From Parietichytrium sp. I65-24A (Eukaryota; Sar; Bigyra; Thraustochytrida; Thraustochytriidae), in the NCBI GenBank assembly GCA_012862575.1, contig BLSF01000009.1, forward strand, positions 707,961 to 771,960: DNA of 64,000 nucleotides, read 5' to 3'. Shown here in pieces: positions 5,313 through 32,665 of this stretch. The position numbers and the translations under genes were made by a program. Positions within the stretch are counted from its first letter, which is position 1. Every line of letters begins with the position of its first letter. The notes under the pieces are model-generated. The model ran no database searches and was not told the origin of the DNA. It saw nothing but the letters and a program-made list of their open reading frames with translations.

Positions 5313-8300
5313 CTAAGAGGTAGATTCCTGATCGCTGCTGCTGGAGGATCCCGAAGATGAAGCGGAGGATGAGGAGGATGAGGACGATGGCGAGGAGCTC
5401 GAACCTGAAGACGACGGCGACGACGATGATGATGATGTGAAGCGAGATGTCAAGACTGGATCGGGGCGGCTTCTTTGGAGGCTAGATGAGTCACCTGGAG
5501 AACTCGACAGCTTCTGTTCCAAAATCTCTAGGCCCCCAACGTCCTCCTTCTCATAGCTGTAGCCGACGGGACTATGAGCCAAAAGCCCATCTTTAACCTT
5601 GTTTGTGGGCGGCGTTGGCAGGCCGTCCAAAGAAACGCTCACAAAGGCATGGATGGAACCCACAACGGCACCATTGTTGTCCTTGACAGGAAGATCGGCC
5701 TCCAGTGCGGTTTCACTCTTCGCAATTTGATCGAATAAAGCGTATTGCGCCGTGCCAACGGTAACTGATTTTCCTACCTTTGTGGTGCGCAGCAGCTTCA
5801 ATTCAAGCAATGGCCAGTCAGTCTCCCTCCGCTCCACTGGGAGCAAAAGCTCCAGCTCACCACTTCCGTCAGTCCATTCTCCGTCCTCGTTGCTCTGTAC
5901 AGAAGAGGACTGGAAGTTTCCAGGAATCACTTTCGCTGTGACGGAGAAGCCCTTCCGGTAAAGGAGACTCATCGACTCCTCTACGTTGGTCACCTTCTCG
6001 AGTCGCAGATGAACGATATCGTTCCCATCGCTCGTCTCTGCCCCAGGCTGGGACGCTTGTTCACCGGATGCCTTGAGCAGGGCCTTTTGTTCCAAAGCTC
6101 TTCTGGTCCGCTCCTCAAGCTGAAGTTGCAGTGTTGCATTAGGTTTTTGTGACCCTGATAATCGGCGAAAGGTTGACTGAATCACGTTTGCAGCCCTGTT
6201 CTGAGACACCCTGACCTGTTTTTTCTTCCAAAATTCACGCTTGGCCGATTTTTGTCGTACGATGCTTTGAATTCTCACTGCGGCAAGCTCGTTTGCATCC
6301 GTCAATACAACATGCTCAACTCCTCCCGAAGTCTCGAATTGAACCGAGATTGAGTCTTGAGACTTGCGTGGAGAAGATTTTGGCGAATGGCTTCTCGGAG
6401 CATCACTCTTAACTTCTGCATGTTTCTCCTCGACGAGATCTTGCTCCTTGTTCTCTAACATATTTTGCAGCCTTGGACTCCAGCGCAGCACATCGTCTTC
6501 GGTCTGAGCGTGCTCTCTTGGTGAATGATTCAGCTCGCGAAGTTGTTGCTCAGCGACGAGTCTATCGTGTTCCTCTTTTTCTTTCATTTTTAGATCCACA
6601 AGCTCTTTGAATGACTTCCTTTCTAGATGGCCGCGCACTCGCTTTTGAATCATGACAGCCTTCGCAACGCGAGCCTTGAGTAACTGGAATCTTGACTGAT
6701 CAATACGACCGCGCAGTCTACTCTGCACTTTGACGACCGATTCTAAAATATCCTTCTCGGGAATCCAGGAGAGTTTAAGTTCGAGTACTCCTTTGTTCTC
6801 ATCCAACAGCACACGATATATGTTACCATCTATAGCGGCATTGTGGAACATAATATGGTTGAGGCGCATCCAACTCCGCGCACGAGCAATAGGTGAGTCA
6901 AACCCGATAAATGCTTTATCGTATATGCTGAGGTCCAGCTTCAAGTCCGCGCAGGACTTTGTTTTGTCTGCGGTTATAAAAAACGTATGCTCTGACTTGT
7001 GGCTATCTGCATCCCATTCTGGGGTGACACCACCGCCCTTGCAGTGCAGCGTCTTGAACTCGTGATGTCCCGGTTCAAGAAGCATTTTAACGTACGGATC
7101 CTGGCTGCCAATCCAAGTGATTTTGCGCAGTCCCCAGGCACGTAGAAATTGGACCTTCAGCACCCCTCCGGGGATACTTGTTCGGCTCATCTTGTAAAGT
7201 GTCTTGGCTCGGAATCGGCGCACATAGCTCTGTATCCTTACCACGTGTTTTGCAGCTCTTTGCATGTGAAATTTTTGCCTCGCTTGATGTCCACGGATCT
7301 GCGCTTGAATTTTCATAGCAGACTTCGATTCTTTCGCGATGCGGCTCTTTGCCTTGTCAATCGCGGATTTGCTAAAATCATCCAGCTCCATTAATCGAAG
7401 CTCCTTTTGTCGAACAAGCTGTGCACGTCTACGCGCAACCTTCCCGCGCATGATTCGCTGAATAGTGTTTGCTGCCCATTGTCGCAAAGTGAGAACTTGT
7501 GTCTCTTTGACAAAGAGGAGTTTACGTTTCGCAAGCTGTGCGCGGCGAGCATTCTGGATTACCTTTGCTGCTGCAGCCTCCTCGGTTGGCTTTTTAATCA
7601 GGACCAAACATACGTGGATGTCTCCGATCGCATTTTCCAGGGCATACCAGTGCGTGTTTTCGGCTTCATGCGCTTCCACTTCCTCCTCTTTGAAAGCTTC
7701 CAAGTTGCACAATGGAATTTCAATCGACCCGATCAGCTTTGCAGGGAAGGGAGTGTTTTGGGCGTATACTGACATTTCAATACACTCCTTCTCAGTGTCT
7801 AGAGGCCGGGTAGCGTCAAACGAAAACAAATGCCTCTCTCGAGTTGAGTCGCTCCATACAGGATTTGCAGTGGCCGGTGCTGGCTTTGACCTCCAAGACC
7901 GATTTCGGAACGACGTCTTGCAGTAGAGTTTGCAATTCGACTTCTCAAAGTTTCGCCCACGCAAAACGCGCACCCAGATGGCGGAAAGGTCAGGTTCTGG
8001 CGCATCCACCGTCTTCTTGCTCCACATTTTCGGTGACATAGGAGACAGCAACGTAGACCCATATTCTAGAAACATGCGCATCCAGTTAATAGGCTCAAAA
8101 TTAAAAAGTTTGCTGAGATGCTCCTCGTTGCCATTGTAGACAAAGATACACATCTTCATCTGCAAGAGACCGGCGTCTTTTCCATTCTTATCCTTGAGGC
8201 GAAAACTGATCGTTGCGTCAGTCCCGTGAGACTTGTGCTTCAATACGTCCGCCCACAGATTCACCGTGGCGAAACCTATCAGACGATTTGCCATTACTGT

Positions 8301-11300
8301 CTCTTCATCGTATACCTCAATCAACAAGGACTCCTCACCATTTAATTTTGCCCCCTCCAAGAGAATGCGCAAGTCACTCTTGTGTTTTACAGCGTCCCAT
8401 TTCGGATCCGTGCCTCCTCCCGAAATGCACTTGCTTCTAGCCTTGTTAGCGCTACGCACATGCGTGATTTGCACAAACGGGTCCTGCTTTCCAATCGTTT
8501 GAACTCGCTTCAAACCATTTGCCTCGATAGCAACGGCGCGGAGAGCCAAGCGTTGCTCTACGTGCATATTGTCAAGCTCTTTTGGCGAAGTTGGAGACGG
8601 TGCTGAAATTTCTTTCTCCTCGGTGACTTCCTCCGAAGGCTTATCTCGGAAACCAACATACATGTTCAAGGTCCCAGCCTCCTTTCCACTCCTGTCCTTC
8701 AAATCGACTTGAAGGGCTAGCGCAGCAGGGCTTTCAAACACTTCCAAAGGAACTCGATACATAGCCTGTCCTATGAGGCGATCAGTCAGCACAGGCATTT
8801 CATCAAGAACTTCTACAAGGAGCTCCGGGCACTCTCCCGTTGGCGGAGCGCCAGGATACGCCAAGCTTGTGAAGCCGGATCTTGGACTCCAGCTGGGCGC
8901 GTCTCCCCCTTTCTGGTGCGTCTTAATCTTTGCGGATGTATTCCACGGCAACAAGGTGAAACGCACGATAGGGTCCATCTTGCTCCACCTCTGCACGTCT
9001 CGCAAGTTGACACATGACGTGGCCTGGCAGGTTATTTGTCCAACCTTTGCGAGTAATTCCCACTGCGACTTGCGGTCCGGCACTTTTCCCGCGCGATTTG
9101 CGTTTGCGGTAGGACTGCTGAGAACAACGTGCTGAGAGCCTTCTGGGACAGCAGGATCGAACCACACTTCCACGACCAGTGTTCCAGCATGCGGAACTTC
9201 AGGCGCGGACAGTGGTAAAGCAAACCTCCTACGATCCTTGATCAAAGCATCTAGTTGCATACTCGTGTTGGCAATCAACCGATCCTTCATGACAACCTCT
9301 TTGTCCATCACCGTGAAGCTCAGGATTGGCCACTCGGTTTGGGACTTCGTTCCAGCATAATTCAGGGCCATAGTGCCGTCCGCTTCTGACCACTTGGGAT
9401 TCTTGCCACCGGAGTGATGAGGTTTGCTTTTTGCCTCGGCCTGATTCGTATTCAGCCTGACGATTACGTACGGGTCTTGCTTGCCAATCATTTGAACGAC
9501 TCGAAGATCATGACACTCAACTGCGCGGACGTGAATTTTACCAAACTGGGCGAACTCCATCGTCTTCCCAACTGTTGGTGAGTTGACGACCTGAACAGTC
9601 TTGGCCTGCGACCTGGTCTTCGGCATTTCAATTGCGGGAATTTCGAGAAGTGCTGGGGATGCAGGAGCTCTGGGAATCAATTCTCGCGGCAGGTTGAGAG
9701 GGGATACGGGCGAATGAGGCACCCCAGAAATCACCATCGGCGACATCGCATTTGGCGAACCGGGAGAACACAACACTTTCATTTCTGCTGGTAAGGCGGG
9801 GGTCTGTGGACTCAGATTTTCGTGCGTGTCGCTCTGTGGCGAGACCGGCGATGTGGGAAGATGTGTCCAATTCTGCCCACCCGGAGACACAATTACGTTT
9901 TCGGCCAAGAATGGGCTGCCATGAGCCTGCCTTGGGGCGGATGTATTGCGATTATAGCTGTATTCGTTCTCAAAGAGTGGGCTCGGCTCTTGGACACACT
10001 TTGTGCATCCGTTGCACCCGGAATCGTGGCAATCGGAGGCTTGATGTTGTCCTTTGGTCTCGGCAAAAGCGATGTGAATCGAGATTTGCCCAGAGAGACG
10101 TCCAGCAGCGTCGTGCAGCTGAATGGTTTTGCACTGCGTCTGTTGATTGCCACAAACAATATGTGAAAGCTCCAATTGCCCAGAGGCAATGTGTCTTGCC
10201 TTTGCTGCGACTTCGCTGTCCATGACATCAAGTTGCAGTACTGGCATCTCCGGAGCGGGGGGAGGTCCCGGGAATTCAAGATCAAACGTGGCCTCCTTCT
10301 TGGTCCATCGCGCGCTTTGTCCCGCAAATCTCTTTGTTGGGGTTTTTCTCTGCACTCTCCAAGGCAGTAGAGTAAGAACTACGAAAGGGTCCTGGGGAAA
10401 AATCCGCTGTATATTTTGCAAGGAACCAACCTCCACAACTCGCACCCGAATGATGCCAGGCTTTGCCACTGGGAGTCTGCTCTGCGGCGCAGTTCGAATG
10501 AGCTCTTCCTTGAGATTCCCATTGAGACCATCTTGGCCGTAGTCCGTGAATGTCGTGTAGAATTTGAGAATTCCATACCCGTTGGTGAGGGAGACTTGCT
10601 GAAAAGATGGCGAAGAAGTCATCAGCTTGGCAACTGACAGCTCAGAAACTGCTCGCAGCGACATCACACCGTTTTCCATCGAATGGAGCTCTATTTCAAC
10701 GGCTGCGTCTTGAATATGGTTCGAGTATCGGTATTCTAAAGCTGCGCTTTGCCCAGTGGTGTCTCCCAGCTGCAAAAGATCCGACCCCCCGTCGGGGTGC
10801 AGGGAAACTCTGACTGAGGTACTGTTGAGATCTAACCGCCGGTGTAAGAAGTGCTCAACCAGCGCAATATGAATCCGGCCGCTGCGAGCCAAGCTTGATC
10901 GATGTGGAATACCAAGCGCATTTTCCACCGTCCGACGAATCGCCGGTCTTGAGCGCAGAGCAGAGGGGTGCACCTGGTTCAGAGCGTCGTTAAAGTCCGT
11001 CTTGTACTCATCATTCAGTTCACGGAGACGCTCCTCTCGCCGCTCAAGCTCCCGCGCAGCCCTTCTACGCTTCTTCTCAAGCTGCTTCCGATACCGCTCC
11101 TCCTCTTTGTCCAATGCCAGCTCGCGCCTTTTGCGCTCATACTCGAGTGCGTACTCTCGCTCAGCAGCGGAACGAGCACGAGCTCTCATGGCCATACGCT
11201 CACTTCGGGATACAGCGCCCTGCTTATTTCCCGTGGAGCCTATCCTCTTGGCTTCGTCCAATGCTTCAATATGCCTAGCCTTCCGTCTCTGCTTTTTGGA

Positions 11301-11867
11301 CGTTGGTGACTTTTGATGAGTGGCTTTACGCAGATAATCGAGCTCCTTATCCCTCTCTCTGATGTCTAGCTCCCGCTCTCTGAGCCGCTCTTGAAGCTTA
11401 TCCGTCTGCTGTTTAGTTTTGTCCAGATGATCACGCAGCTCGAATGCCGCATTCCGATACCGCTCCGCTTCGGGGTTTGGTTTGGGCGAATGTTTCGGTG
11501 ACGTTGGAGACACCCAGCACATCTCCCCGGCGTTAGCTTTGTTCTTTCTTGATCGCCTGCGTCGGGATGGACTCGAACGTTTGGCCCCGCTGTGATCCGC
11601 CTTTACCGGTGAACTTTGTTCGCGCCGGACCTTGCGCTTGCCATTATGCGGACTTTTGCTCCGTCTAGCGCTCTGCGAACCATTCTGTCGAGGAGACCTG
11701 GCCGGTTTCTTCCTTGACGAGAGGTGATGTTCATCGCCGCTGTCTCCTTCTTCGGCGAACGCCAGTTTCGCCTTCCGTAGTGAGGCAACTTCCTTGCGAA
11801 GCCGTTTGACCACCGAGTCCTCCTTGTCGACGTTAAAAAGCTCATCTCCGAGCGGGTCCACCATCAT
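5313..11867 (-). CDS. Giant multi-C2-domain, IQ-motif protein
   Basis: One uninterrupted frame encodes 2,184 residues. The N-terminal 300 residues are basic, Ser-rich and coiled-coil. C2-like domains begin near residues 326, 471, 774, 944, 1105, 1292, 1566 and 1949. Several carry the loop signature GKQDPYV/GKQDPFV and end in DRLIG or NRLIG. IQ-type calmodulin-binding helices lie between them (about 1436-1540, 1715-1755 and 1860-1895; for example AANTIQRIMRGKVARR and VVRIQSYVRRFRAK). The C-terminus is a Ser-rich tail (about 2130-2184). C2 domains generally bind Ca2+ and phospholipid, and IQ motifs bind calmodulin or EF-hand light chains, so a calcium-responsive scaffold at membrane or axoneme is plausible. 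There is no enzyme or membrane domain. The start is MMVDPLGDELF at 11867; the frame continues 16 codons upstream without an ATG. Confidence 0.85.
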   Translation of the reverse strand: MMVDPLGDELFNVDKEDSVVKRLRKEVASLRKAKLAFAEEGDSGDEHHLSSRKKPARSPRQNGSQSARRSKSPHNGKRKVRREQSSPVKADHSGAKRSSPSRRRRSRKNKANAGEMCWVSPTSPKHSPKPNPEAERYRNAAFELRDHLDKTKQQTDKLQERLRERELDIRERDKELDYLRKATHQKSPTSKKQRRKARHIEALDEAKRIGSTGNKQGAVSRSERMAMRARARSAAEREYALEYERKRRELALDKEEERYRKQLEKKRRRAARELERREERLRELNDEYKTDFNDALNQVHPSALRSRPAIRRTVENALGIPHRSSLARSGRIHIALVEHFLHRRLDLNSTSVRVSLHPDGGSDLLQLGDTTGQSAALEYRYSNHIQDAAVEIELHSMENGVMSLRAVSELSVAKLMTSSPSFQQVSLTNGYGILKFYTTFTDYGQDGLNGNLKEELIRTAPQSRLPVAKPGIIRVRVVEVGSLQNIQRIFPQDPFVVLTLLPWRVQRKTPTKRFAGQSARWTKKEATFDLEFPGPPPAPEMPVLQLDVMDSEVAAKARHIASGQLELSHIVCGNQQTQCKTIQLHDAAGRLSGQISIHIAFAETKGQHQASDCHDSGCNGCTKCVQEPSPLFENEYSYNRNTSAPRQAHGSPFLAENVIVSPGGQNWTHLPTSPVSPQSDTHENLSPQTPALPAEMKVLCSPGSPNAMSPMVISGVPHSPVSPLNLPRELIPRAPASPALLEIPAIEMPKTRSQAKTVQVVNSPTVGKTMEFAQFGKIHVRAVECHDLRVVQMIGKQDPYVIVRLNTNQAEAKSKPHHSGGKNPKWSEADGTMALNYAGTKSQTEWPILSFTVMDKEVVMKDRLIANTSMQLDALIKDRRRFALPLSAPEVPHAGTLVVEVWFDPAVPEGSQHVVLSSPTANANRAGKVPDRKSQWELLAKVGQITCQATSCVNLRDVQRWSKMDPIVRFTLLPWNTSAKIKTHQKGGDAPSWSPRSGFTSLAYPGAPPTGECPELLVEVLDEMPVLTDRLIGQAMYRVPLEVFESPAALALQVDLKDRSGKEAGTLNMYVGFRDKPSEEVTEEKEISAPSPTSPKELDNMHVEQRLALRAVAIEANGLKRVQTIGKQDPFVQITHVRSANKARSKCISGGGTDPKWDAVKHKSDLRILLEGAKLNGEESLLIEVYDEETVMANRLIGFATVNLWADVLKHKSHGTDATISFRLKDKNGKDAGLLQMKMCIFVYNGNEEHLSKLFNFEPINWMRMFLEYGSTLLSPMSPKMWSKKTVDAPEPDLSAIWVRVLRGRNFEKSNCKLYCKTSFRNRSWRSKPAPATANPVWSDSTRERHLFSFDATRPLDTEKECIEMSVYAQNTPFPAKLIGSIEIPLCNLEAFKEEEVEAHEAENTHWYALENAIGDIHVCLVLIKKPTEEAAAAKVIQNARRAQLAKRKLLFVKETQVLTLRQWAANTIQRIMRGKVARRRAQLVRQKELRLMELDDFSKSAIDKAKSRIAKESKSAMKIQAQIRGHQARQKFHMQRAAKHVVRIQSYVRRFRAKTLYKMSRTSIPGGVLKVQFLRAWGLRKITWIGSQDPYVKMLLEPGHHEFKTLHCKGGGVTPEWDADSHKSEHTFFITADKTKSCADLKLDLSIYDKAFIGFDSPIARARSWMRLNHIMFHNAAIDGNIYRVLLDENKGVLELKLSWIPEKDILESVVKVQSRLRGRIDQSRFQLLKARVAKAVMIQKRVRGHLERKSFKELVDLKMKEKEEHDRLVAEQQLRELNHSPREHAQTEDDVLRWSPRLQNMLENKEQDLVEEKHAEVKSDAPRSHSPKSSPRKSQDSISVQFETSGGVEHVVLTDANELAAVRIQSIVRQKSAKREFWKKKQVRVSQNRAANVIQSTFRRLSGSQKPNATLQLQLEERTRRALEQKALLKASGEQASQPGAETSDGNDIVHLRLEKVTNVEESMSLLYRKGFSVTAKVIPGNFQSSSVQSNEDGEWTDGSGELELLLPVERRETDWPLLELKLLRTTKVGKSVTVGTAQYALFDQIAKSETALEADLPVKDNNGAVVGSIHAFVSVSLDGLPTPPTNKVKDGLLAHSPVGYSYEKEDVGGLEILEQKLSSSPGDSSSLQRSRPDPVLTSRFTSSSSSSPSSSGSSSSPSSSSSSSSASSSGSSSSSDQESTS

Positions 11868-12212
11868 GAATCGACTCGGTTCAACTGAACAGCCGCGGTC
11901 GCGGAGCGCAGTCAACTCTCACTCGCTCTTTTCGCCTCACTTTGAGGGCTACAAAACACGCTGCCTCCGGGGGAACTCTGCTCTTGGCATTCACTTCCAA
12001 CAGAGGTCGGCGCCGCTCGAGCGACTTATTCCGTCCTCCGTCCTCTGTCGCTGTCGGGGTCGTCTCCGGGGCACTTGGAGCGCCAGAACACGCACGACCA
12101 GGTTACAATTATGGCGCACGCGAGTCTCTTTTTCTGTGCTGCACCAGCGCCAAGGCCAGAGCCACGCTCGACTTGACTTGCGGAGGAGCTGCAGCGGGGC
12201 GTGATTCACTCT

Positions 12213-14033: not shown

Positions 14034-14227
14034 AGTCAGAGACAGTCGGAGAGAGAGAGAGAAGGAAGCAGGCAATAGCGAGCGCGCATAGATCAAAGTG
14101 GAAACAGCAAACAGCAAACAGTAAACAAGTCAACAGCAGGAGGACAGTGGAGAGCGCGGACCGGTTTCTGTGCAGAGTGGGCGATCGCGTGGGCGATTTG
14201 AGCCGGTGATGTGAGCGAGCAGTAAAG

Positions 14228-16546
14228 ATGCGGATGTGGCGCTTGAAACGGTTGAAGGAGTTGAAGGAGCTGAAAGATTTCGGGGTGCTGAAAGATTGTG
14301 CAGCGGAAGACTGGAGAGCGAGACTGGGAGAACGAAAGCGTTGGAAATGGGGCCGCGCGAATGGGCGCGAAAAGAGCACAAGCGTCGCCGCTGTAGCTGC
14401 GGTCTTTGGTGTGTGGGGCATGGCAGCTGCGGATGTGGTGAGGAAAACGGAGACGGAATGCTATGGAAGACCCGGAGATTATGCGCTCGCGGAGGCGGCA
14501 TATGAAGGGGAAAATCGTTTCCAGTTTTTTAGTAAGGTGCTCGGTGAGGGATCGTACGGCGTGGTGAGGCTCGGTCGCGACAAGCTGACGGGCAGAAAAG
14601 TGGCAGTCAAGGTGGTGAGACATGGACGTGGGGTAAATGTGAGTAACGAGGTGGCGGCGATGCAGCAGATCATGGCCAAAGGTGGACATCGGAGCCTGAT
14701 AGAGCTGATTCAAATCATCGAGAAACCGGGCATCACAATGATTGTCACTGAGCTCATCTCGGGCGGAGAAATTTTTGATCGCCTAGTAGACAATGGGCCA
14801 TTTTCGGAGTCAGACGTGGCCACTATCGCGCAATCTCTGGCGCAAGGGATCGAATTTTTGCACGCCAAGTGCAATACTTGTCACTGCGACCTCAAGCCGG
14901 AGAATGTGCTATTCACGGACCTGAAGAGCTCGAAATCATCCTCATCGCAGGTAAAGATCGTGGACTTTGGAAGTGCACGAGATTTTAGTAAAGAAATTGC
15001 ATACACCGGTGACATGGGCACTACCGTATACTGGGCTCCTGAGAATTTTCAGTGGCGCGCAAGGCGCGACAAAACTTCTTCAGCCGAGGAAGCTGCATTT
15101 GGTCCTGCTTCCGATATGTTCGCGATTGGTTGCATCCTGTATATTTGTTTGTACGGTGCACATCCATTCGATCCGGACGGAAATTTAGAGGAGCATCAGA
15201 TTGCGGAGCGGATTCAGGACGGACGATGGAGCTTTGACGACTCGAAAGTACAAATTTCTGACTCTGCCAAAGACGTGATTTCGAGGCTATTGGAGCTTGA
15301 CGCTCCGAAGAGGCTTTCCGCCTCACAACTGCTCGAGCACCCTTGGATCCGCGGTGAAACGGCAAGCCAGCGGGTCATCGAGGGCTCCGCAGCGCGGCTT
15401 GAGGAATTTCAGCAGGCTCGAAAGAAAATTAAGGCCGGCCTACTTGCGGCTATGCTATTGCAAGCATTGCAAGATCAGGACGTGTCAGACGTGAATTCGT
15501 TCTTGGTAAAGATCCAGAAGCGTGAGCAAGAAAGTGCAGAGGCTGTTTTGAAGAGGACTTTTGATTTTTTCGACCAAGATGGGAAAGGTTTCCTAACACC
15601 GCTAGATGTCGCAAATGCACTCGAAAAGCTTGGAGACAATCAGGTCACCCCCAACGACGCCGGGAGCATCATCTCGGCTATCAATCGCCGCGTTCATGAA
15701 GCAGAGCCTGCCGCACCGCAGAAGAGATTCTCAATGTCTGGCCTCTTTCGTGATAGCTCCGCAAAACCTGAGTCTTTGGAGTTTCGGGATATCGTGGAGA
15801 TACTCTCTGAAATTCCGCGCAAGTCATACCGGGGCGGGGACATTGTCTTTCACCAAAACGACGTCCCAGACAATTTTTATTTCATTATGTCCGGTGAGGT
15901 GAACGTGATAGTCCGGTCCCAGGCAGGGGAGAGTATTCACACAGCTTCGCTCGGACCTGGAAACTTTTTTGGAGAGGGCGGAATGCTGAGCGGAAATCTG
16001 CGCACGGCAACGATCCAGTGCGAAGGACCAGTGGAGCTGCTTGTTTTGAGTAAATCTGATTTCGAGAGTCTCAAAGATGATGCCATGTTTCACAAGTCTG
16101 AGGCATCCATGAACGAGCTGGTGGTGGGTAGAGCTCTCGGCCGCGTACACGCTCTATTTACATCTGCTCCTGAATGCACCAACGTGAGCCTCCGGGAGAA
16201 TGAGATCGTCTTTCGGAAAGGCGATCGCGGCGAGGATGTCTATGTAGTGAATTCTGGAGAGATCGGGCTGTTTGAGCACACTGAGCGCGGGAGCCTTGGC
16301 GAAATTGTAAAGGTGCGAGCGGGCGGCATGTTTGGCGAAACTGCCCCTATGACCGGGACTCCCCGAAATGCTTCTGCCATTTGCTTGTCTAGGGAAGGCT
16401 GCAAGCTAAGCTGCTTGTCCAAGGGACCATTCCTGCGCGTGATGAGTGAGGTGGACTCTGCAGCAAATATGATCCGAACGCGGAAAAGCGCAAGCTTTCT
16501 TCGGTCCGAAGGCAAAGCAGGCTTGGTGGAGTCTCAGCGGAAGTAA
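14228..16546 (+). CDS. Protein kinase with one EF-hand and two cyclic-nucleotide-binding domains
   Basis: A 772-residue protein. A CDPK-like kinase domain spans about residues 97-375: glycine loop GEGSYGVV, VAVK lysine, DFG at about 244, and APE in YWAPENF. The catalytic loop reads HCDLKPEN, so the Arg of the usual HRD is Cys (non-RD). A single good EF-hand follows (DQDGKGFLTPLD, about 446-475). Two cyclic-nucleotide-binding domains come next (about 529-610 and 651-740). Their phosphate-binding cassettes, FGEGGMLSGNLRTATI and FGETAPMTGTPRNASA, each keep the key Arg. In PKG the CNB domains precede the kinase; here the order is reversed. Control by both Ca2+ and cyclic nucleotides is inferred. 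The first ATG gives a Leu/Lys-rich N-terminus of uncertain role; a later start near residue 74 is possible. Confidence 0.88.
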   Translation: MRMWRLKRLKELKELKDFGVLKDCAAEDWRARLGERKRWKWGRANGREKSTSVAAVAAVFGVWGMAAADVVRKTETECYGRPGDYALAEAAYEGENRFQFFSKVLGEGSYGVVRLGRDKLTGRKVAVKVVRHGRGVNVSNEVAAMQQIMAKGGHRSLIELIQIIEKPGITMIVTELISGGEIFDRLVDNGPFSESDVATIAQSLAQGIEFLHAKCNTCHCDLKPENVLFTDLKSSKSSSSQVKIVDFGSARDFSKEIAYTGDMGTTVYWAPENFQWRARRDKTSSAEEAAFGPASDMFAIGCILYICLYGAHPFDPDGNLEEHQIAERIQDGRWSFDDSKVQISDSAKDVISRLLELDAPKRLSASQLLEHPWIRGETASQRVIEGSAARLEEFQQARKKIKAGLLAAMLLQALQDQDVSDVNSFLVKIQKREQESAEAVLKRTFDFFDQDGKGFLTPLDVANALEKLGDNQVTPNDAGSIISAINRRVHEAEPAAPQKRFSMSGLFRDSSAKPESLEFRDIVEILSEIPRKSYRGGDIVFHQNDVPDNFYFIMSGEVNVIVRSQAGESIHTASLGPGNFFGEGGMLSGNLRTATIQCEGPVELLVLSKSDFESLKDDAMFHKSEASMNELVVGRALGRVHALFTSAPECTNVSLRENEIVFRKGDRGEDVYVVNSGEIGLFEHTERGSLGEIVKVRAGGMFGETAPMTGTPRNASAICLSREGCKLSCLSKGPFLRVMSEVDSAANMIRTRKSASFLRSEGKAGLVESQRK

Positions 16547-29885: not shown

Positions 29886-31070
29886 ATGAGGGGCTTTCAA
29901 GGGAGCTTCCGCGTGGAGAGTGCACAGGGAAGTGGCCGTCAGACGTTCACGGAGGAGGTTTTAGAGAGCAGAGTACGAGCAGATGTTCTTCATGAAAAGG
30001 CGCATGGAAAATCATCGGCTCCGAAGGCTCGTCAGGAAGAAACTGTCAAGATGATCCACCTTCGCACAGGAAAGCCTGTGGCGTCTCTTGAAGAAGTTTC
30101 TTTGCCAGAGTTTGGAGAATGGACCTGGGCGACCAATTGGCGCATTACCCGAACAGCAGGTAGCGACATGGAGGGGTGGGCCCAAGACAGACTTGACGCG
30201 GAAAGGGAAAGCCGGAAATGGTCCCGTACGAGGGCCACAATGTCTGGGCCGTCTTCTAGCGATGCGCCTCGCGGAGCCGCAAAAGAGGACGCAGTAGATA
30301 TTGCTGGACAAGACCTCATAGTATCTCCAGATTCTCCGAAAACCCCAGAGATTTTCCAAAAAAAGATCATGGCAGGGCTGAACTTGCTTCAGCTGGACGT
30401 AGCCAAACTTATTCAATTCGAGTCCGCCTTCGGCGGAAAAGACGACTCTGAGGCATTTCGGAAAATAGCCACTGAACAATCGCGGAGGGCTGAGGAGCAC
30501 TTGAAAAGTATGGACGTCCTCTTCGTCGAACTTGCAAAGCTTGAAAAGGTTGAGACAAAGACAACTGGCGCATCGAAGACATCAATGCTCCAGGCTACCC
30601 GAAACAAGCTATTCAAGGACTACAACAGAGAGAAACAGGGCCTGCTAACTTCTTTGAGGACTGTGAAGCAAAAGGCACACACGACTCGCATCCCGCGAGA
30701 AAACTTGAACATCGCGAAGACGTCAGCTGCGCTCATCGAGAGTTCCGAAGAAGGGATGGAAACCGATGGAGGGTATATGACAAGAGAGCAGAGGACACAG
30801 CAAATCGCTTCCAAATTAGTCCTGGACTCAACCTTAAATGTCAACCGGTCATTGTTGCAAGAGCGCGAGGAGGAGCTGAAACACATTAATACCGAGCTTC
30901 ACGATGTACAATCCATGATGTCACAGGTTGCAGGTATGGTAGATACACAGGGCCAAGACATCAAGAAGGTGGAAAAGCATACTGAAGCTGCCTTGGTGAG
31001 TACAGAAAAAGGTTATGAAGATATCAAAGCCGCAGAAAAAATTCAGGCAAGCAACTGCGTGATTAGCTAA
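29886..31070 (+). CDS. Qa-SNARE (syntaxin-like) with DysF-like N-terminus and CaaX end
   Basis: A 394-residue protein. Residues 10-118 resemble the DysF module of ferlins, TECPR1 and yeast peroxins: FTEEVLESR, then EWTWATNW, MEGW and RKWSRTR in the usual order. About 155-300 is helical and Habc-like. About 321-388 is a SNARE motif of the Qa class (REEELKHINTELHDVQ, then the zero-layer Gln in VDTQGQDI). The stop follows directly after IQASNCVIS, so there is no transmembrane anchor. CVIS has the form of a CaaX prenylation box (farnesyl type), which could anchor the protein. Qa-SNAREs drive membrane fusion; DysF domains of TECPR1 bind sphingomyelin. Combining the two is inference from sequence. 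ATG at 29886 is the first in frame. A hidden last exon is unlikely because only 54 bp separate it from the convergent gene. Confidence 0.8.
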   Translation: MRGFQGSFRVESAQGSGRQTFTEEVLESRVRADVLHEKAHGKSSAPKARQEETVKMIHLRTGKPVASLEEVSLPEFGEWTWATNWRITRTAGSDMEGWAQDRLDAERESRKWSRTRATMSGPSSSDAPRGAAKEDAVDIAGQDLIVSPDSPKTPEIFQKKIMAGLNLLQLDVAKLIQFESAFGGKDDSEAFRKIATEQSRRAEEHLKSMDVLFVELAKLEKVETKTTGASKTSMLQATRNKLFKDYNREKQGLLTSLRTVKQKAHTTRIPRENLNIAKTSAALIESSEEGMETDGGYMTREQRTQQIASKLVLDSTLNVNRSLLQEREEELKHINTELHDVQSMMSQVAGMVDTQGQDIKKVEKHTEAALVSTEKGYEDIKAAEKIQASNCVIS

Positions 31071-31124
31071 ATGACACGAGTATCGACGAGATCTCTGGAA
31101 AGTACAGTGGCTTGCTGCCATTTT

Positions 31125-32665
31125 TCAAGGCAACCTCCAAAGTAGCTTACCGCTGGACCTAAATGGGCGGAGTAGTGATCTCGATACGAGCATTTCGACC
31201 ATCAGCTCAACCCTCGCCATCGTGTAGTCTGGCAGGTGTTTTGCAAGATCTTGAATTGTCATTGCTTGACCCTTTTGAAATTGACTATACACACATGTGA
31301 CCTGGGCCGCACCCTCCCCGGTTCTGAAGAGAGGTGGGAAGAGGGAGAGACTGAATTCTGGTGGAGCCGAGTCGCTGTCGTACTCTCCATCTACGGAGTT
31401 AAGATCGTCAGAGTCCACTGGATTAGAGTTTACTGCTTCAGCACAACGTTTCTCAGCGGACTTTCTTCCGATGTATTCGTATGGGGTTTGCGATTCTTCG
31501 AGAAGAATATCCTCCTCTTGCAAATGCCTTGGGAGCGACCGCTTGCTCTGTTTGGCTATTCGGTTCGACAACGGCGTGCCGATCGACCTTTTCGCCTTCT
31601 TTAGCGCCTTCTTTTCACTCTTAGTGGTAGATGCCAGCGACCTTTTTTTCTCGCTACGTTGAGTTTGCTCAGTATTCATTCGGGACATATCATTTTCTTC
31701 AAATCCCACTAAAAGCTCCTCCTCTTCTTCCTCTTGCCTTTTGGAGTATGGCTGCTGCACCTCCTCGCCATCGCTCGAAGCGCTGTCGTCTTCGCTATCC
31801 CATGGCTGTCCCCCTCTTGAGCCGAGTCTTCCAATCACTTCAGGAGACTGCATTTTTGGTGTTGCTGGATTTGATGAGACTCTAGAAATATTTACCGCGT
31901 TGCGCACACCAGAGGAAAGCATAAATTCTGTCAAAGACTTTGCAGGAGTGCTCCGTGAAAGCCTGCTAGAAGACTTTCTCGGATCGGTTAGAGCGTCGTA
32001 CTTGCCGTCCTCAGGTGTTGGCGGTGTGGCAGGTGTAATCTCGCTAATATCCAGAATGTTCGACGGAGAGGCTATGACTTGGCCACCGTACGCTTGTTGT
32101 GCCGGTTTTGAAGCGCTCGATTCTGCGAAGGACGCCGAGAAATTGGTCTTTGGCGGTGAGAATTTGAACTCCTCAATCAAATTTGTATCCTCGGAAGAGT
32201 AGGACTCGTTCATGCCAAGCCTACGGCCCATCGGAGTTTTCGCAAAAGACTTGGAAAACAAGGGCATTCGCGGGGTCGGTGGCATGTCGCTCGAGGATCC
32301 TGACATCGTGCTCTGATCGCTGTGAGGTTGCATGCCGCCTGCCTTGTTGGTTGACTTGGAGCTGTTTTCGGAGGCCGCAGGCTTAAGGTTCAGCGCCTCA
32401 ATGCTAGAAAAGAATCTACACCACGTGGATACTTGTTTCGCAGCATCCTGCATTCTTTGATCGAACGTTTTGACATGCTTGAGGAGTCTGCTACCCGCAT
32501 CGACGGCCTGCGCTCACACACACACACACATCCAGTTCCGATTAGACTTGCAAAACCACCAGACAATCCATCTGCACAATTCATCCCCCAACGCACCTTC
32601 ACAAAGTTCCCGTCGATCTCTTGCAGACACTGCGTGTATTGCAGCTCCAGCCCGTCGGCGTCCAT
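31125..32665 (-). CDS. Two-exon protein with C-terminal winged-helix-like region, unknown function
   Basis: Coding exons are 32597-32665 and 31125-32507, read on the minus strand. The 89-nt intron has GTGCGT at its donor and GCGCAG at its acceptor, and it contains the GT repeat. Joining is in phase and gives 483 residues. About 1-65 is a helical N-terminus (CLQEIDGNFVK from exon 1 continues as AVDAGSRLLKHVKTF). About 65-400 is Ser/Pro-rich and disordered, with many TP and SP sites (TPATPPTPEDG, NPATPKMQSPE), the kind used by cyclin-dependent kinases. About 420-483 looks like a small winged helix (MTIQDLAKHLPDYTMARVELMVE). The layout recalls kinetochore proteins such as SKA3 or DASH subunits, but no diagnostic motif is present, so I do not name it. 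Confidence 0.7.
32513..32531. repeat. (CA)n microsatellite inside an intron
   Basis: About nine CA units; on the coding strand it is a GT run immediately before the intron acceptor of the minus-strand gene. Confidence 0.9.

Follow-up and report, generated by a model that had tools for sequence, protein, structure and literature searches.

The window (the whole stretch of DNA analyzed here, 64,000 nucleotides long) carries a gene for a 394-residue protein that we read, with a probability of roughly 55%, as a farnesylated Qa-SNARE, probably endosomal or vacuolar, that is directed by a divergent DysF module for lipid binding. A Qa-SNARE motif, a CaaX end, an ORF free of any transmembrane (TM) segment, a DysF-type ladder of Trp and Arg residues and, elsewhere in the genome, a gene for a farnesyltransferase beta subunit can be read directly from the DNA. 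We consider a gene for an additional, lineage-specific Qa-SNARE to be the best explanation.

The ORF runs uninterrupted from 29886 to 31070 on the plus strand and comprises 394 codons and a TAA stop (31068 to 31070). All of the motifs quoted in the preliminary description of this DNA were found in its translation: FTEEVLESR (residues 21 to 29), EWTWATNW (78 to 85), MEGW (95 to 98), RKWSRTR (110 to 116), the zero-layer Q355 and CVIS (391 to 394). With a training set of 15,412 codons, the codon log-odds were 0.255 per codon for the whole ORF, 0.209 for the first 120 codons and 0.398 for the last 120 nt. The GC3 of the ORF (0.53, versus 0.53 to 0.57 in its neighbors) and its codon preference are those of the surrounding genes. 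The window is the final 64 kb of contig C9 in an assembly of 42.5 Mb and 172 contigs. A search of the same genome with the protein (E value threshold, 0.001) returned the protein itself, in one copy, and a single distant SNARE (L002), and no relative was found in viral contigs (six pattern matches, none confirmed). The architecture is thus that of one gene model in one genome, with relatives sought in that genome and in viral contigs.

Table 1. Positions (in the window) of the Qa-SNARE gene, its parts and the converging ORF
Feature	Position	Strand	Remarks
Whole coding sequence	29886..31070	+	Order: DysF-like, linker, Habc-like helices, Qa-SNARE motif, CaaX
DysF-like domain	29943..30239	+	Residues about 20-118
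Habc-like three-helix region	30345..30683	+	Residues 154-266; from predicted model and Foldseek
Qa-SNARE motif	30849..31043	+	Residues 322-386; zero-layer Q355 (codon 30948-30950)
CVIS (CaaX box)	31056..31067	+	C391 lies eight residues past the +8 layer; sequence ends EKIQASNCVIS
Convergent ORF	31125..32513	-	462 aa; no Pfam match at E 0.001; 54 nt from the 31070 stop

Several other large frames came to light. At 14210 to 16543 (plus strand) of the window, a protein kinase domain is followed by a weak EF-hand (below the cutoff) and then by cyclic-nucleotide-binding sequence (two stretches, the best at residues 538 to 621), an order that is the reverse of the usual domain order of PKG. A 2,201-aa frame at 5316 to 11918 (minus strand) contains three C2 stretches and an IQ motif and has no further Pfam match at an E value of 0.001. 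A 4,180-aa frame, scanned in two parts, matches the alpha and beta families of fungal-type fatty acid synthase; a fused alpha/beta fatty acid synthase is typical of labyrinthulomycetes. A 5,583-aa open frame with four ketoacyl-synthase domains (L037 to L039 and L042; genome C66, about 8 to 19 kb) is polyketide-synthase-like.

The claim of a Qa-SNARE motif with a zero-layer Gln was borne out. Around Q355, the layers are L, I, L, V, M, V and V on the N-terminal side and I, V, T, A, T, G, I and A on the C-terminal side. Class profiles were built from the genome's own SNARE motifs (five Qa, seven R and three Qb/Qc, with classes assigned by eye); the Qa profile matched the protein at 26.6 bits (E value, 2.1e-10 against this single target), the R profile scored −2.5 bits (E value, 0.31), and the Qb/Qc profile reported no match. 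With phmmer against PDB sequences, the top match was 5buz_C (“SNAP receptor-like protein,” which we take to be Chaetomium Vam3) over residues 322 to 386 (E value, 1e-4); then came a second chain of the same name, entries for syntaxin 1A and, further down, syntaxins 7 and 13; with the whole protein, non-SNARE matches began at an E value of 0.24. The motif is nevertheless divergent, since the same Qa profile scored far higher with syntaxin 1A (69.8 bits) and 5buz (57.0 bits). The Pfam SNARE family (PF05739) does not report the protein, and the protein is absent from whole-genome searches with PF05739 (14 matches) and PF06398 (3 matches), both of which score first-look candidates only. By BLASTP, the nearest paralogue in the genome is L002 (28% identity over 85 residues; E value, 2e-9), which has a TM-like tail and a Syntaxin_2 match under threshold (18.4 bits; cutoff, 26.5), and comparisons with paralogues L010 and L008 gave nothing significant. 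Over the 55 residues of the motif, L002 and L006 each share 14 identities with the protein, and 5buz is identical at 16 of 55 positions. The residue after the zero layer is Asp in four of the five Qa motifs of the genome and Lys here (QGQDIKKV).

N-terminal to the motif, a single-sequence AlphaFold model placed helices at residues 154 to 182, 190 to 226, 229 to 266, 271 to 288 and 300 to 391, with block pLDDT values of 54 to 80 in the first three helices and 69 to 84 over most of the last. In a Foldseek search, syntaxin or SNARE titles appeared on 20 of the best 50 of 428 matches (our own count), among them the N-terminal domains of syntaxin 12 (TM-score by target, 0.77, the highest of these 50), syntaxin 6 (0.75) and syntaxin 1A (0.72). 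Because the E values start at 0.052, with none below 0.05, and because MIC60, Hsp70/BAG, spectrin and designed bundles are also among the matches, this result is taken only as a lean toward an Habc fold. A sequence search with the Habc-like part alone returned nothing convincing (four ribosomal-protein matches; E values, 1.5 to 1.9). We take the SNARE half to be a Qa-SNARE with a probable Habc domain, and its endosomal or vacuolar assignment is a lean.

Next, the N-terminal region was compared with DysF domains. According to the available part of the structural report, the TECPR1 DysF loop is held by W116, W118, W122 and W138 together with R159, R161, R165 and R167 (PMC10476172). In the window protein, all four ladder Trp positions are occupied (by W79, W81, W85 and W98), as are three of the four Arg positions (R110, R114 and R116 for R161, R165 and R167); E108 stands at the position of R159. 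A ladder pattern drawn up post hoc, with the sequence already seen, occurred in 9 of 200,000 shuffles of residues 1 to 130; among the 502 window frames of at least 60 aa, the 394-aa ORF alone has it. The pattern does not pick up the DysF domain of L004, in which the ladder differs. The best Pfam match of the protein is Pex24p (residues 57 to 106 to profile positions 282 to 339 of 358; 13.8 bits; E value, 0.029), under the cutoff of 26.8, and the runner-up is a coiled-coil family (E value, 0.052). The same end of the Pex24p profile (positions 226 to 358) matches a clear DysF domain in L003 (E value, 1.9e-17), which in turn matches the TECPR1 DysF domain (8p5p; E value, 4.2e-8).

The preliminary description had noted a DysF-like pattern, and profile comparisons upheld it in part. 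With a two-row profile (L003 and L004), the protein ranked 4th of 2,162, with three shuffles above it, and was not separated from shuffles. A five-row profile (L003, L004, TECPR1 and the inner and outer DysF domains of myoferlin), which replaced the two-row profile after its failure and after PDB relatives had turned up, scored residues 1 to 130 at 14.6 bits, a score reached by none of 10,000 shuffles (best shuffle, 12.2 bits), and ranked the 394-aa ORF first among 502 window frames (E value, 0.0044; second frame, 2.9); at 12.2 bits, the full-length protein was level with the top-scoring shuffle of residues 1 to 130. With hhalign, three DysF domains aligned with residues 1 to 130 over 38 columns in register (P value, 2.3e-4; Prob, 44.5%), with 39% identity to L003. 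The alignments reach over residues 61 to 99 (hhalign) and 77 to 114 (hmmsearch), and FTEEVLESR, which falls outside both, is the weakest piece. The DysF-like part is short between the GW and the Arg ladder, and neither the YA-x-F piece nor the first of the ladder Arg residues is present. AlphaFold gave residues 1 to 125 block pLDDT values of 29 to 56, with no strand in the full-length model and three short, low-confidence strands in a 125-residue model. We regard DysF homology of the N terminus as very probable.

The genome carries two other DysF domains. One lies in a 3,602-aa frame that is VPS13-like by eye (L003 and L034-L035; genome C63:13716-24521). The other is N terminal in a 300-aa frame (L004:853-1752, minus strand; genome C8), where a sub-threshold Pex24p match is followed by a coiled-coil-like stretch.

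Sphingomyelin sensing, which had been suggested by analogy with TECPR1, was not supported. As given in the accessible part of that report, the sphingomyelin-binding tip of TECPR1 comprises R76, W77, C84, L88, L89, S90, I142, D143, K152, K153, W154 and C157 (PMC10476172). Of these residues, R76 alone might be matched in the window protein, by R29, in a comparison by eye that equates ESR with ENQR; V30 would then stand at the W77 position. The 394-aa protein has no LLLSD-, YAIDF- or KKW-like piece, and the program alignments do not extend to the tip pieces of TECPR1. In vitro binding of phosphatidic acid has been described for Pex30-family and dysferlin DysF domains in the part of the text available (PMC12101078). 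By analogy, lipid binding by the DysF-like domain is plausible, and phosphatidic acid, although a guess, would be a better one than sphingomyelin. A role in vacuole repair or damage sensing is speculation.

At the other end of the protein, the CVIS tetrapeptide stands directly before the stop codon and the ORF contains no TM stretch (the highest Kyte-Doolittle mean over 19 residues is 0.98), as the preliminary description had it. Strict CaaX ends were found on 6 of 1,935 stop-ended frames of at least 60 aa in the window and the genome loci examined, and a looser pattern was found on 9 (overlapping loci were kept as they were; L001 and L036, which hold the same gene, were dropped). The six are the 394-aa protein, a Ykt6-like protein, an adjoining 275-aa frame and frames of 65, 100 and 65 aa. 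The 275-aa frame (L030:1959-2783, minus strand; genome C30) also ends in CVIS and converges with the Ykt6-like gene that it adjoins. The genome has three genes of the prenyltransferase-beta family, one of which (L023) encodes a farnesyltransferase beta subunit (E value, 2.2e-98). From the motif, CVIS is predicted to be farnesylated. Genes of the ICMT family (L032) and the Rce1 family (L048) are only candidates for later CaaX processing, because both family models also match prokaryotes (4 of 14 prokaryote controls over the cutoff for ICMT and 11 of 14 for Rce1). The Ykt6-like R-SNARE in L030, named by eye, ends in QCCIIC, which makes it probable that this genome uses a lipid-anchored SNARE.

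The preliminary description had named a spliced last exon encoding a TM helix as a refutation of its reading. In the version of this idea weighed here, CVIS would be read-through into an intron, and the real protein would be an ordinary tail-anchored syntaxin ending in LLLFFLLPFGVWLLHLLAIARSAVVFAIPWLSPS (31716 to 31817). The prior for a TM helix in a Qa-SNARE is high, and a splice scan, which paired donors within the final 90 nt with acceptors as far as 900 nt ahead, did yield four paper joins to TM-like tails, three of them in phase to LLLFFLLPFGVWLLHLLAIARSAVVFAIPWLSPS at 31716, from the donors TTG|GTGAGT (30996), CAG|GCAAGC (31047) and TGC|GTGATT (31059). These joins require introns of 657 to 720 nt (747 nt for the fourth), against 67 to 99 nt for the SNARE-gene introns measured here (L006, 99 nt; L025, 76 nt; L011, 83 and 67 nt; donors GTAAGT or GTGAGT, placed by eye), and a TM-capable paper exon was also obtained for 5 of 16 control ORFs, while a CaaX end by chance is rare, as the frame counts given above indicate. 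The donor at 30996 would, in addition, remove SNARE layers +5 to +8, whose sequence (STEKG and AEK) matches paralogue L006; the sequence past this donor (STEKGYEDIKAAEK) is considered coding because it matches L006 (STEKGVKELQVAEK). The Leu/Phe run of LLLFFLLPFGVWLLHLLAIARSAVVFAIPWLSPS is explained by the opposite strand, where a Glu-rich segment of the convergent, coding-like ORF (Table 1) lies antisense to it. Between 31140 and 32340, the frame of that ORF has a codon score above 0 in every one of the 11 full steps of 120 nt (0.06 to 0.36), with a plus frame outscoring it at step 31860, and over 31716 to 31817 it scores 0.35 to 0.36 per codon versus 0.17 for the plus-strand exon. A shorter join, from GTGAGT at 30996 to TACAG near 31107, was examined by eye and rejected; it gives a tail without a TM helix, with SNARE layers +5 to +8 lost. 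Given the long intron and the antisense position, a missed TM exon is judged very unlikely.

If the gene model stands, the protein could still be a nonfusogenic SNARE, an inhibitor or scaffold that is prenylated and binds partner SNAREs and thereby prevents fusion or slows it, a role suggested for tomosyn and amisyn. There is no TM helix to transmit the force of zippering, the motif is divergent enough to be missed by the Pfam SNARE family and has Lys for Asp after the zero layer, and T, T and G occupy layers +3, +5 and +6. However, the zero-layer Gln is retained, as are most of the hydrophobic layers, the predicted Habc-like region is as in fusogenic syntaxins, and SNAREs with lipid anchors are able to sustain fusion in some assays; we find an inhibitory role doubtful. 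It is also conceivable that the N terminus is a disordered, Trp/Arg-rich leader and the protein only a CaaX Qa-SNARE, a view to which the low-confidence models, the sub-cutoff Pfam score, the failure of the two-row profile and a full-length score that does not exceed the best shuffle all lend themselves. What makes it unlikely is that a ladder defined by structure is kept in order, at levels that shuffles of residues 1 to 130 reach rarely (ladder pattern) or not at all (five-row profile), that hhalign finds 38 columns in register, with the P value and the identity to L003 given above, and that DysF domains occur twice elsewhere in the genome.

For the farnesylated, DysF-steered Qa-SNARE that we prefer, prenylation, lipid binding, location, cycling and fusion activity are the inferred parts, and they would fit together as follows. 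C391 of CVIS would be farnesylated, followed by the usual trimming and methylation, and the prenyl group would replace a C-terminal TM helix as the hold on the membrane. By analogy with other DysF domains, the divergent DysF module would bind a lipid and so pick the membrane of the SNARE. A single prenyl group holds weakly, and cycling between cytosol and membrane would be possible, as in Ykt6. DysF and prenyl group together would make a two-point, lipid-dependent attachment, and pairing of the SNARE helix with its Qb, Qc and R partners would thereby be confined to the correct membrane. A bolder version, which we put forward tentatively and with the odds against it, is that the protein represents a new class of conditional t-SNARE, farnesylated and lacking a TM helix, with its site of fusion set by a DysF lipid sensor; a change in membrane lipid, such as phosphatidic acid where there is a contact site, a lipid droplet or a damaged vacuole, would then recruit the fusion machine directly, an extension that we hold to be just as tentative.

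A second SNARE with a lipid-binding domain is present in the genome: a 789-aa frame (L047:2217-4583, minus strand; genome C24:401217-403583) combines ankyrin repeats and a FYVE domain with an R-SNARE at its C terminus (Synaptobrevin E value, 3.3e-7), ends in SWFGLF and has no TM helix by eye. This ankyrin-FYVE-R-SNARE could be a lipid-steered partner of the 394-aa protein.

Fusion SNAREs are normally fixed in the membrane by a TM helix. If our reading is true, the protein offers a natural way of testing if membrane fusion by a t-SNARE depends on such a helix, and the poorly understood DysF domain gains a plain role as a targeting device; the result would surprise a SNARE specialist and is directly testable. 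Among the titles and abstract openings listed by full-text literature searches, whose coverage takes in a minority of subscription journals, none dealt with a DysF-SNARE or a CaaX Qa-SNARE. The terms CAAX, prenyl, farnesyl and palmitoyl are absent from a phylogeny of fungal SNAREs (PMC2639358), and in the portion of another paper that was at hand, the CaaX box belongs to a mosquito protein and the syntaxin has a TM helix (PMC13174592). Each part of the window protein is of a known kind, and the combination is new within the literature covered by these limited searches.

Compared with the endosomal and vacuolar syntaxins (Vam3 and syntaxins 7, 12 and 13), the window protein shares a Qa motif with a zero-layer Gln and, by prediction, Habc-like helices in front of it but differs in its DysF-like extension, in having a CaaX box for a TM helix and in a motif too divergent for the Pfam SNARE family. 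STX11 and STX19 are Qa-SNAREs without a TM helix that carry lipid-modified cysteines, in palmitoylated cysteine-rich tails, and are not known to have a DysF domain; Qa class, lack of a TM helix and a lipid-modified cysteine (predicted in the window protein) are common to them and the window protein, which differs by its DysF-like domain and CaaX box. Ykt6, a longin-type R-SNARE, shares with it a SNARE motif, a C-terminal CaaX lipid anchor (predicted in the window protein) and the lack of a TM helix. The window protein is, unlike Ykt6, of the Qa class, has a predicted Habc-like region and has one cysteine, and a Pfam scan of its 394 residues gave neither a Synaptobrevin nor a longin match. In Ykt6, two conserved cysteines at the C terminus carry the prenyl groups, as stated in the available part of the source (PMC12001115). 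With the DysF proteins (TECPR1, the ferlins, the Pex30 family and Spo73), the order of the Trp/Arg ladder and a probable lipid-binding finger are held in common, and the lipid-binding tip of TECPR1 is absent. The DysF carriers named in the accessible portions of three papers are ferlins, a beta-propeller protein and yeast peroxisomal and endoplasmic reticulum (ER) proteins, with no SNARE among them (PMC2923515, PMC10476172 and PMC12101078). A parallel in design is offered by the PX-Rheb and FYVE-Rheb proteins of protists, in which, in the part of the text available, a lipid-binding domain precedes a prenylated protein and the CaaX box is kept in PX-Rheb and one FYVE-Rheb (PMC5869587). The protein behind the lipid-binding domain is a GTPase there and a SNARE here, but a lipid-binding front domain (putative in the window protein) and a CaaX box are common to both.
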